In this document: piece after piece, positions 13,759 through 15,726 of the stretch
Layout: each line of letters starts with the position of its first letter
How positions within the stretch are numbered: position 1 is the first letter of the stretch
DNA from: Planctomycetota bacterium
Lineage (GTDB): Bacteria; Planctomycetota; Planctomycetia; Pirellulales; Pirellulaceae
Assembly: GCA_027619595.1 (NCBI GenBank)
Contig: JAQCHP010000039.1
Location: 1-37,347, forward strand
Length of the DNA stretch: 37,347 nucleotides
Direction: 5' to 3'
Translations under genes and position numbers: made by a program
Notes under the pieces: generated by a model
The model's input: only the letters and a program-made list of their open reading frames with translations
Databases searched by the model: none
What the model was told of the DNA's origin: nothing

Positions 13759-14772
13759 TCATAGTTCCACGCCAACAGCGGCAGCCACTCGACGACAGCG
13801 GGCCATCATTTGCGAAAACTGGTCATATGTCAGTGACTGATAACCGTCGCTCAGTGCACGCTCCGGCTGCGGATGGACCTCAACGATAATCCCGTCGGCA
13901 GCGATGGCAACGGCGGCCACGGCCATGTCCGGCACCATCCAGGCGTGCCCCGTACCGTGGCTGGGATCAATCACGACCGGCAGGTGGGTCTTCTCGTGCA
14001 GGTACGTAACCGTCGCCAAAGGCAACGTAAACCGCGTGTGGGATTCGAATGTCCGAATGCCCCGTTCGCACAACATGACGCGCGGATTGCCCGCATCGAG
14101 AATGTATTCTGCGGCTAACAATAGCTCCTCTAGTGTGGCACTGGGGCCACGCTTGAGCAATATCGCGCGATCGGTCTTTCCCACAGCCTCGAGCAGGCGA
14201 TAATTTTGCATGTTGCGCGCCCCCACTTGCAACACGTCGGCGTAACGAGCCACAAGTTCGACATCCTCTGTCGACATCACTTCGGTGACCACGGCCAGCC
14301 CCGTCTCATCACGTGCCATGGCCATTAGCTTCAATCCAACTTCCTTGAGCCCTTGGAAGCTGTAAGGGCTAGTCCGCGGCTTGAAGGCTCCGCCCCGGAG
14401 CGCCGTCGCACCGGCTGCCTTAACGGCCCGCGCGGCGGAAAGAATTTGCTCCTCGGTCTCCACCGAACAAGGACCAGCGATCACACCACAATGCCCGCCA
14501 CCGACGCGCAACCCACCGGCAACGACTTGCGTGGGCTCAGGCCTTAACTCACGACTAGCCATCTTATAGGGAGCCAAGATCGGCACGACCTCCGCCACCC
14601 CGGGAGCCGACTCAAGCGAAGCCTTCGCCTGCTTCCGGTCATCTCCAACCGCCGCTACGACTGTCCGTTCCGTCCCGACAATCACGTGGCTCTTTAGATT
14701 CATTGACTCGATCAGGGCCACCACGTGTTGAACCTGGTCCGAGCCAGCGTTTTTCTTCATTACAACGATCAT
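13759..14772 (-). CDS. aroF: 3-deoxy-7-phosphoheptulonate (DAHP) synthase, AroF/AroA-beta type
   Basis: Catalyses the first step of the shikimate pathway, joining phosphoenolpyruvate and erythrose 4-phosphate. It is 337 residues, the usual length of the type I-beta enzymes that carry an N-terminal ferredoxin-like (ACT-like) regulatory domain (here about residues 1-70, starting 'MIVVMKKNAGSDQVQ'). The barrel follows with 'VIAGPCSVETEEQ', the active-site 'LRGGAFKPRTSPYSFQG', 'VLQVGARNMQNY', 'ILLKRGPSATLEE', 'LCERGIRTFE', 'VVIDPSHGTGH' and 'VEVHPQPERALSDGYQSL'. The ATG at 14772 has GGGAG nine bases upstream. The gene stands alone; expression appears to be governed by the attenuator at 14843-14985, which fits end-product control by aromatic amino acids. 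Whether the enzyme is also inhibited through the N-terminal domain cannot be read from sequence. Confidence 0.96.
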   Translation of the reverse strand: MIVVMKKNAGSDQVQHVVALIESMNLKSHVIVGTERTVVAAVGDDRKQAKASLESAPGVAEVVPILAPYKMASRELRPEPTQVVAGGLRVGGGHCGVIAGPCSVETEEQILSAARAVKAAGATALRGGAFKPRTSPYSFQGLKEVGLKLMAMARDETGLAVVTEVMSTEDVELVARYADVLQVGARNMQNYRLLEAVGKTDRAILLKRGPSATLEELLLAAEYILDAGNPRVMLCERGIRTFESHTRFTLPLATVTYLHEKTHLPVVIDPSHGTGHAWMVPDMAVAAVAIAADGIIVEVHPQPERALSDGYQSLTYDQFSQMMARCRRVAAAVGVEL

Positions 14773-14842
14773 GTCGAAAATCTCCCATCTTTGAGTGTGT
14801 ACGAAACAACTGTGGCGACAAACAACCCCGTGACCCTCAACG

Positions 14843-14875
14843 AAAAAACCCCGAGACGTCAGTGACTTCTCGGGG
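14843..14875 (-). terminator. Attenuator terminator (3:4 hairpin) in the aroF leader
   Basis: On the minus strand the arms CCCCGAGA and TCTCGGGG (plus-strand 14868-14875 and 14849-14856) form a perfect 8-bp stem. The loop can extend the helix by a further GTC/GAC pairing. Six T residues follow immediately (A run at 14843-14848 on the plus strand). It is a textbook intrinsic terminator, but it lies upstream of aroF in the same direction, 70 bases before the start codon, with no gene ending at it; the preceding minus-strand gene stops at 15028, before the leader peptide. That placement marks it as an attenuator rather than an end-of-gene terminator. Confidence 0.9.
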
Positions 14876-14969
14876 CCTTGCTGTGGGGATGTGGTCAGAT
14901 AGCAATAAAGCTAGGTGCACCCTCCGGCCCCGCTACGAAAGCGGGCGTATAGCCAATAACCGAAGGTGC
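14871..14969 (-). promoter_or_regulatory. aroF attenuator: competing 1:2 and 2:3 (antiterminator) hairpins
   Basis: Segment 2 on the minus strand (CGGGGCC, plus-strand 14926-14932) is the exact complement of GGCCCCG (14871-14877), which overlaps the 5' arm of the terminator; this 7-bp all-G/C pairing would block termination. Alternatively, segment 2 folds back on the leader-peptide coding region: GCACCTTC (14962-14969) with GAGGGTGC (14917-14924, one G-U pair) and CCCGCT (14940-14945) with AGCGGG (14929-14934). The aromatic codons lie in or just before that 1:2 hairpin. A ribosome stalled there would free segment 2 for antitermination. This is the logic of the trp and phe attenuators; its use here is inferred from sequence. 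Confidence 0.85.
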
Positions 14970-14985
14970 CGTGAATGTTGATCAT
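14911..14985 (-). CDS. aroF leader peptide rich in Phe, Tyr and Trp
   Basis: A 24-codon frame from ATG 14985 to TAG 14911. It begins 'MINIHGTFGYWLYARF' and ends 'RSGAGGCT'. Residues 8-16 hold Phe8, Tyr10, Trp11, Tyr13 and Phe16: five aromatic residues in nine, covering all three aromatic amino acids, the end products of the pathway that aroF opens. An in-frame upstream ATG at 15000 would add five residues. No good ribosome site precedes either ATG. The peptide is presumably not functional as a protein; its translation should sense charged tRNA-Phe, tRNA-Tyr and tRNA-Trp. The aromatic cluster, the following hairpins and the position together make chance unlikely. Confidence 0.85.
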   Translation of the reverse strand: MINIHGTFGYWLYARFRSGAGGCT

Positions 14986-14991
14986 GCGGTC

Positions 14992-15020
14992 ATTATGCAT
15001 TATCGAGGCGCCCCACACAA
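14992..15020 (-). promoter_or_regulatory. Candidate promoter for the aroF leader
   Basis: On the minus strand TTGTGT (15015-15020) and CATAAT (14992-14997) are separated by 17 bases, resembling a sigma-70-type -35/-10 pair. Transcription would then begin close to the leader ATG at 14985, giving a very short or absent untranslated stretch, which would fit the lack of a ribosome binding site. GATAAT at 14998-15003 is an alternative -10. Planctomycete promoters are poorly defined, so confidence is low. Confidence 0.3.
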
Positions 15021-15027
15021 GATGCTC

Positions 15028-15726
15028 CTACCCGGAATGGTGCCGACGTTGCACGGGACGATTCGCCCTCGTTTCGTGCGTCTTGCGGTAACCATGCTCA
15101 ATCGCAAACCATTCTGCGTACCGCTCACGGTCCGTATAGCTTGAATTGCGTTGATCCAGCAAATGACCCAATTCGTGGATCAGAATATTATTCAGGTAGA
15201 AGTCCTTCACGGTTGCCTCCGACCAAGTCAGCTGCCAACTGCAAGGGGGAACCTCCCGCCACTGGCCACCATACATACGAGCCTCGTTGTACTGAGCCGG
15301 CGACGGTGACCGCGCGTAGAATTCTGTCAACGAGCTTTCGATCGGATACAGATACAGGGTCGAACCCCATTGCATCCCATAACAGGGAAAACTCTGCTTC
15401 TTGCGCGTGATGCGGCTCAGTTGCACCACTTCCAATGATTCCAGCATGTAAGCTGGCAGTTGGGCTAGCCGCTCGCGAATCTCCGGTTCGGTTACCACAT
15501 GTCGATAACCGTCTCCAGGCTTCTGTACTACGACTCGATAATTCCCATCATTGGTCTCGCGTGGTTCGTACCAGTCCTCAGGCGGAGAGAATGCACCCCG
15601 CTCATTGCGTCCGTTCCCGCGCGCCCGTTGACTCAATGCCGAGTTATGACGAAACTTCCTAGCGAAGGAACCCGCGTTGGGAACCGCTTGCCGAATGTTC
15701 TTGCGTAAGTTAGTACGATGGTGCAT
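15028..15726 (-). CDS. Putative zinc metallopeptidase-like protein (HELGH motif)
   Basis: I chose the ATG at 15726, with GAGG nine bases upstream, giving 232 residues; the frame extends to a GTG at 15741. The C-terminal part holds 'NNILIHELGHLLDQRNSSY' followed by 'DRERYAEWFAIEHGY'. This is an HExxH zinc motif, with Glu residues (AEWFAIEHG) about 20-25 positions later that could supply the third ligand as in gluzincins. The N-terminal third is basic and looks disordered, without a signal peptide. No known peptidase family can be named with confidence. It lies immediately upstream of the aroF attenuator on the same strand and could contribute read-through transcription. Its substrate and role are unknown. 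Confidence 0.7.
   Translation of the reverse strand: MHHRTNLRKNIRQAVPNAGSFARKFRHNSALSQRARGNGRNERGAFSPPEDWYEPRETNDGNYRVVVQKPGDGYRHVVTEPEIRERLAQLPAYMLESLEVVQLSRITRKKQSFPCYGMQWGSTLYLYPIESSLTEFYARSPSPAQYNEARMYGGQWREVPPCSWQLTWSEATVKDFYLNNILIHELGHLLDQRNSSYTDRERYAEWFAIEHGYRKTHETRANRPVQRRHHSG

Follow-up and report, generated by a model that had tools for sequence, protein, structure and literature searches.

The aroF gene on this stretch of planctomycete DNA is very probably controlled by a trp-type, ribosome-mediated transcription attenuator that senses the charging of the Phe, Tyr and Trp tRNAs together. By the features that can be tested in sequence, the aroF leader is recognisable as such an attenuator: a short ORF rich in codons for the end products lies upstream of a biosynthetic gene, the leader ORF is followed by an intrinsic terminator before the structural gene begins, an antiterminator shares the 5′ arm of the terminator and is mutually exclusive with it, and a further hairpin overlaps the leader and competes with the antiterminator. 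The leader is unique in the window (the whole stretch of DNA analysed, 37,347 nt) when both strands are searched for ORFs of 12–45 codons with at least five aromatic residues in nine and a terminator within 90 nt. The parts, frame and pairings were read directly from the DNA, and their conservation and co-variation from related loci. The features are as follows.

15015..15020, minus strand: −35-like element TTGTGT, read from the sequence
14992..14997, minus strand: −10-like element CATAAT, 17 nt from the −35 box and ending 6 nt before the leader ATG
14911..14985, minus strand: leader ORF MINIHGTFGYWLYARFRSGAGGCT, 24 codons followed by the TAG, with the ATG at 14985 and the TAG stop at 14913-14911; read from the sequence, peptide type kept at 42/48 orthologous loci
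14947..14964, minus strand: predicted control codons Phe8, Tyr10, Trp11 and Tyr13
14940..14945, minus strand: segment 1, CCCGCT, the 5′ arm of the anti-antiterminator hairpin 1:2 (perfect 6-bp stem, −9.7 kcal/mol)
14926..14934, minus strand: segment 2, of which AGCGGG (14934-14929) pairs with segment 1 and CGGGGCC (14932-14926) with segment 3
14871..14877, minus strand: segment 3, GGCCCCG, the 3′ arm of the antiterminator and 5′ part of the terminator (2:3 co-variation, 0/5000 permutations)
14849..14875, minus strand: terminator hairpin 3:4 (−17.2 kcal/mol; co-variation in 35 aligned leaders), with an 8-bp outer stem of arms CCCCGAGA (14875-14868) and TCTCGGGG (14856-14849) and a 3-bp inner stem, GTC/GAC
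14843..14848, minus strand: T6 tract of the terminator, read from the sequence
14782..14786, minus strand: GGGAG, the likely Shine-Dalgarno sequence of aroF, read from the sequence
13759..14772, minus strand: aroF, 3-deoxy-7-phosphoheptulonate (DAHP) synthase, the putatively regulated gene, named from NCBIfam matches

The aroF product matches the NCBIfam DAHP synthase models NF006421 (479.5 bits, cut-off 335) and TIGR01361 (371.8 bits, cut-off 267.75). The element GGCCCCGAGAAGTCACTGACGTCTCGGGG followed by T6 (14877-14843) starts 33 nt past the leader stop, and 70 nt separate the terminator end from the aroF start. A sequence-only reading of this DNA had described a 24-codon minus-strand frame with five aromatic residues in nine, a terminator with an 8-bp perfect stem and U6, a complementarity between GGCCCCG and CGGGGCC, and an alternative folding of segment 2 back on the peptide-coding region, all of which we found where it had placed them: the five aromatic residues lie in FGYWLYARF, the complementarity of 14877-14871 to 14932-14926 is exact, and the fold-back is the CCCGCT/AGCGGG hairpin. 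Since CGGGGCC overlaps AGCGGG and GGCCCCG overlaps the terminator arm, pairings 1:2 and 2:3 are mutually exclusive and 2:3 excludes the terminator. Both the terminator and the promoter were absent from the output of a simple consensus scan of the window, probably because the scan had a loop limit of 8 nt and a promoter threshold of 9/12, the promoter-like pair in the window scoring 8/12.

In the mechanism that we propose, transcription would begin at the leader ATG and a ribosome would enter directly on the 5′ end of the RNA. With Phe, Tyr and Trp all plentiful the ribosome would reach the UAG and cover segment 2, and terminator 3:4 would form; with any one of the three in short supply it would stall at Phe8, Tyr10, Trp11 or Tyr13 and cover segment 1, segments 2 and 3 could then pair, and transcription would continue into aroF. 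If the leader were not translated at all, hairpin 1:2 would form and termination would be the default. Stalling and termination in vivo, and which amino acid would act most strongly, we infer. Folding was modelled for seven cases, in which the ribosome was assumed to cover 14 nt, counted from the first base of its A-site codon, as in E. coli. The modelled ribosome positions gave the expected switch: with the ribosome at Phe8, Tyr10, Trp11 or Tyr13 the antiterminator was the fold of lowest energy for a transcript reaching as far as the terminator loop, with the ribosome at Phe16 or the stop codon it was not the best fold, and hairpin 1:2 formed when no ribosome was placed. For the full leader, the terminator lay within the lowest-energy fold in all seven cases, and the antitermination decision would thus have to be kinetic, as in known attenuators. 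Phe16, the fifth aromatic codon, sits in the loop of hairpin 1:2, and in the model a ribosome stalled at this codon would hide segment 2 and give no derepression.

The leader type is conserved upstream of homologous aroF genes, one of the two checks to which the sequence-only reading had tied its proposal. A protein search of 60 relatives yielded 48 aroF orthologues at ≥67% identity, the gene in the window included. Of these, 42, again including our own gene, are preceded by a leader with a terminator as judged by a finder that accepts ORFs of 12–45 codons with at least four aromatic residues in nine and a terminator within 90 nt. The finder gave no leader at the remaining six (L022, L024, L038, L040, L041 and L048). 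It was positive in none of 20 upstream regions of aroF paralogues in the same 60 genomes (20 of the 38 with about 45–53% identity) and in 1/240 dinucleotide-shuffled upstream regions of the orthologues. At a stricter cut, stretches with at least 5/9 FYW plus a terminator were present in 39/48 aroF upstream regions vs 0/30 leuA regions, and at least 5/9 Leu was seen in 21/30 leuA vs 3/48 aroF regions.

All three of Phe, Tyr and Trp occur in 34/42 leaders, whilst four hold Phe and Tyr and four Phe and Trp; the joint Phe/Tyr/Trp sensor of the earlier reading is supported, with the correction that a stall at Phe16 is predicted to leave aroF repressed. Across the 42 leaders pooled, the aromatic share was 26.9% in the leader frame vs 8.4% and 10.3% in the other two frames, and it peaked 12–16 codons before the leader stop. 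The order of the aromatic residues varies freely between leaders and the composition is kept. The Phe codon TTT made up 72/108 Phe codons in the leaders of L001-L030 vs 12/58 in aroF genes (p = 1.5e-8), the latter being the 10 of those 30 loci whose genes were readable by an aroF-start pattern. Position counts also show a recurrent RGAGG tail in the leader peptides of relatives.

The pairings were assessed by alignment, by a swap test and by resampling of codons. In an alignment (A1) of 35 of the 42 leaders, without L006, L015, L020, L027, L029, L033 and L042, the terminator had 95.4% of cells paired with strong co-variation and many double changes. For 2:3, the computed pairing between segments 2 and 3 of the same leader was compared with that between its segment 2 and the segment 3 of other species. 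The native mean over the 42 leaders was −21.3 kcal/mol vs −17.7 kcal/mol for swapped pairs, a value matched by 0/5000 permutations, and the own pairing beat its own mean swap in 34/42, the other eight pairing no better with their own segment 3 than with those of others on average. At 47 loci outside the alignment the values were −19.1 and −15.4 kcal/mol (0/5000 permutations), with 43/47 pairing better than their own mean swap; 43 of these loci are not among the 42 leaders and four (L015, L020, L027 and L033) were already in the first swap test, and the set includes the near-identical groups L069/L071/L077 and L070/L074/L075. The locus set behind the 47 came from 84 sources with 95 model matches, of which 13 opposite-strand, partial or second matches were dropped to leave 82 loci, L042 and L203 having given no match. 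The 2:3 pairing is exemplified by GGGATCTCCGGGCC with GGCCCTGAGATCC in L083 and by GGGATTTCGGGGC with GCCCTGAAGTCCC in L088. For hairpin 1:2, the region had a mean of −8.9 vs −6.2 when the codons of these peptides were resampled synonymously (the 100 null means went no lower than −7.9) and was more stable than its own null median in 33/36 leaders, those without L006, L015, L020, L027, L029 and L033.

Column counts gave weaker support to both of these pairings than did the swap tests and the synonymous null. On A1, 65.8% (1:2) and 67.3% (2:3) of cells were paired, a modest share, and the paired share and covariation score were above most shuffles, but double-sided changes were no more numerous than in shuffles, and 1:2 slid by three columns scored nearly as high (0.170 vs 0.186). 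The modest column signal may arise because the register differs between lineages; the swap test tolerates register shifts and is clear where the columns are equivocal. Of the two alternative pairings, 2:3 has strong backing from swapping and 1:2 has backing from the synonymous null, with a modest column signal for each. Overall, the trp-type reading is supported by the leaders at 42/48 orthologues together with these swap tests and this null. We also considered GGAGG near the leader stop as a Shine-Dalgarno sequence that holds the terminating ribosome. This stretch had a strong Shine-Dalgarno-like energy in 32/42 leaders and the exact GGAGG in 24/42, but 63% of synonymous resamples reached the same energy and the element is not supported beyond peptide and codon usage, and we rejected it; pairing of the GGAGG stretch with the spacer 5′ of the terminator was weakly supported, 180/5000 permutations being as good.

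The leader ORF appears to begin at the 5′ end of its transcript. Promoter-like pairs with at least 8/12 matches, ending 4–10 nt before the leader start, were found at 25/42 leaders vs 3.6% of shuffles, with exactly 6 nt between the pair and the start codon in 18 of those 25, whilst the best −35 candidate started with TTG in 33/42 leaders and 17/42 had no pair of at least 8/12. A strong Shine-Dalgarno sequence (−6 kcal/mol with the anti-Shine-Dalgarno) was present at 0/42 leader starts and at 29/48 aroF starts. In the window, too, the −10-like box lies directly upstream of the start and no strong Shine-Dalgarno sequence precedes it, the combination found in part at 25/42 (promoter pair) and in part at 42/42 leaders (no strong Shine-Dalgarno). 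By a start rule that we assume here, the 6-nt spacing would put the first transcribed base at the leader start codon. Transcription therefore probably starts at or next to the A of the leader ATG, and the promoter-like pair 6 nt before the ATG, with no strong Shine-Dalgarno sequence, points to leaderless translation of the leader ORF, as the sequence-only reading had suggested.

These results also bear on three other explanations of the locus. A 237-codon ORF with its stop at 15028 ends 42 nt upstream of the leader ATG, so that a terminator is to be expected somewhere here, and the terminator might belong to that gene and the short frame be accidental. However, the promoter-like pair TTGTGT-17-CATAAT sits between this ORF and the leader, similar pairs occur at 25/42 leaders, leader and terminator recur together at 42/48 orthologous loci, the aromatic excess is specific to one frame and the 2:3 pairing co-varies, which makes this explanation highly improbable. 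We give as little credence to the leader being a nascent-peptide arrest sequence, in which the peptide, perhaps with a small molecule, would stall the ribosome in place of tRNA charging: the recurrent RGAGG tail would fit such a role, but the leaders keep their aromatic composition whilst its exact arrangement varies freely, and the tails read outside the taxonomic order differ, which is what a tail devoted to RNA pairing would lead one to expect. The same variation in arrangement and tail led us to discard a functional small protein as well as arrest by a specific peptide.

An aromatic amino acid riboswitch, a T-box or a protein-bound RNA could use the same terminator. No Rfam family reached its gathering score in the window, T-box and riboswitch families included, nor did Trp_leader and Phe_leader, which we take to be the Rfam names of the trp and phe operon attenuators; at 16 related loci there were five matches with E no higher than 1, the best at E 0.1, and none of them reached gathering score. 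Sensor-type switching upstream of the same genes is known (PMC2965389), but what is conserved here is a reading frame, and we hold such a sensor to be highly improbable as well. The attenuator that senses Phe, Tyr and Trp charging would give the phylum, with its unusual cell biology, a concrete control circuit and would imply coupled transcription and translation in Planctomycetota, apparently on leaderless transcripts. A single leader would sense every end product of a branched pathway, all three of them, at the first step that they have in common, which would be a simple way of regulating one shared enzyme when any of its products runs low.

With a covariance model (R1) built from the aroF leaders, the same device could be traced to leuA and into other classes of the phylum. 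R1 matched once in the genome of the window (E 1.1e-11) and, at E ≤0.01, in 111/248 genomes of the class, a count that pools aroF leaders, leuA leaders and some chance matches. Amongst 40 matches hand-picked from a longer match list, the 20 from outside the order comprised 15 upstream of aroF and five upstream of leuA, and the 20 weaker ones from inside the order comprised 14 leuA, one aroF and five unclear or chance matches; leuA was called by an N-terminal motif, with L105 confirmed by NCBIfam. A direct search found leuA leaders such as MNQNLLLLQLLLITPGC in 26/30 leuA regions of relatives at a looser cut. As the aroF-leader model picks up poly-Leu leaders of leuA too, attenuation seems to be a general feature of these bacteria.

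In many members of the class, poly-Leu leader ORFs with terminators lie upstream of leuA (2-isopropylmalate synthase), as at L105, L106, L102, L103, L104, L112, L115 and others. The window's own genome has MPTRPWLLLRLKRRGTSPR and a terminator upstream of leuA (L269, G000 contig C67), weaker than in relatives. At L268 (G017 contig C4) an Ile/Val-rich leader, MPNTLINVGSQIGPITIVRIVVPGRCGLG, and a terminator precede a gene that by eye starts like citramalate synthase, suggesting isoleucine attenuation.

At the level of the phylum, 29/294 genomes had an R1 match. The 18 matches from outside the class, all of them read, comprised three at aroF of the window's type, two at prephenate dehydratase-DAHP synthase frames, five AroFGH-like, two leuA, one trpE and five unclear. 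In one family of another class of the phylum (L120, L121, L124, L125 and L130) an aromatic leader stands before DAHP synthases that read as AroFGH, two of them confirmed by NCBIfam; the device is thus not tied to one enzyme type. At L126 and L132 one open frame encodes prephenate dehydratase and DAHP synthase together, with chorismate mutase also present in L126, and a Phe-containing leader and terminator lie upstream of the fusion frame in both. A distant planctomycete (L136) has a possible Trp/Tyr leader, MTRTASNFPSRTWRPYAYGTEASAGLPG, upstream of trpE.

Named aroF loci were considered for the best 80 listed. The 17 nearest of these are titled as Planctomycetota throughout, and eight of them gave a finder hit; so did 11 of the remaining 63 listed, those 11 all bearing titles of other phyla. 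Amongst the matches listed, the finder-positive titles from other phyla were Pelobacter, Geobacteraceae, other Deltaproteobacteria, Acidobacteria, Chloroflexi and Calditrichota; loci from other phyla with a strongly aromatic leader ORF and a terminator before relatives of the same aroF were L205, L209, L222, L224, L229, L242, L245, L251, L263, L265 and L267. L197, from a record titled Candidatus Kuenenia stuttgartiensis, is the same aroF locus as in G043, a genome of the window's order, and the title may be wrong.

On balance we lean slightly towards a wider reading, in which leader-peptide attenuators for amino acid synthesis would be spread across the Planctomycetota, at aroF, AroFGH-type DAHP synthases, leuA, probably cimA, prephenate dehydratase-DAHP synthase fusions and trpE, and would be largely leaderless in the case of aroF. 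The aroF member would then act as an OR gate: if Phe, Tyr or Trp ran short, any of them alone, the shikimate pathway would be opened at its common entry. The sensitivity would depend on the distance of each codon to segment 1 and on the use of the rarer Phe codon.

Amongst the open-access papers listed, titles and abstracts gave no description of leader-peptide attenuation in Planctomycetes, Planctomycetota or the Pirellula group, and an open-access search for leaderless transcripts in Planctomycetota returned only work on S. meliloti. To the authors of a 2010 survey, leader-peptide systems had been known from Proteobacteria and Actinobacteria only, and they then added Firmicutes (PMC2965389). 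A genome-wide survey of leader genes that includes Planctomycetes concerns the distance to the main gene, and its main text does not name aroF (PMC4833913), though the aroF leader may be listed in its bulk tables. The aroF device recurs in many related bacteria and seems not yet to have been described for them.

The trp and phe operon attenuators of Proteobacteria are built of segments 1–4, control codons and a terminator, sense one amino acid and usually have a Shine-Dalgarno sequence. The aroF leader shares this logic of segments, control codons and terminator, but it encodes three amino acids and has no Rfam match at gathering score. In enterobacteria one leader also reads several end products, as in ilvGMEDA/ilvB and thr, although these are branched-chain amino acids or Thr/Ile and not aromatic ones. 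The sequence-only reading had seen the sensing of several amino acids as a departure from one-residue sensors; such ilv-type leaders are a precedent for it.

There are other parallels. A Shewanella aroF element has been classed as an attenuator sensing Tyr-tRNA (PMC2659441); attenuators were predicted before tyrA operons, some with a DAHP synthase gene, in an account whose accessible text does not use the term leader peptide (PMC1173090); and a Leu-rich upstream ORF precedes leuA in Actinobacteria (PMC1262725). The uORFC-13-1 motif, with 24 representatives from Acholeplasma and environmental sequences, likewise places an upstream ORF with Phe codon(s) beside an intrinsic terminator before aroF, but it has a ribosome binding site and is described as having at least one Phe codon only (PMC8632094). 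The S. meliloti trpL transcript begins with the ATG of the leader ORF and is leaderless, as predicted from sequence for the leader described here, but trpL contains Trp codons only and belongs to the Alphaproteobacteria (PMC7298713). A close likeness in gene and peptide is the aroF leader of C. glutamicum, which carries Phe-Tyr-Phe (PMC4046766) and is a further precedent for sensing more than one amino acid. The leader gene there is aroR, with aroF under negative control by Phe and Tyr that is called translational (PMC7356990), and the title of Neshat et al. (2014), cited in the same paper, speaks of ribosome-mediated attenuation. Both systems thus place an aromatic leader peptide upstream of a DAHP synthase gene; the C. 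glutamicum leader is from another phylum and involves Phe and Tyr only, whilst Trp is also encoded in 34/42 of the leaders described here.
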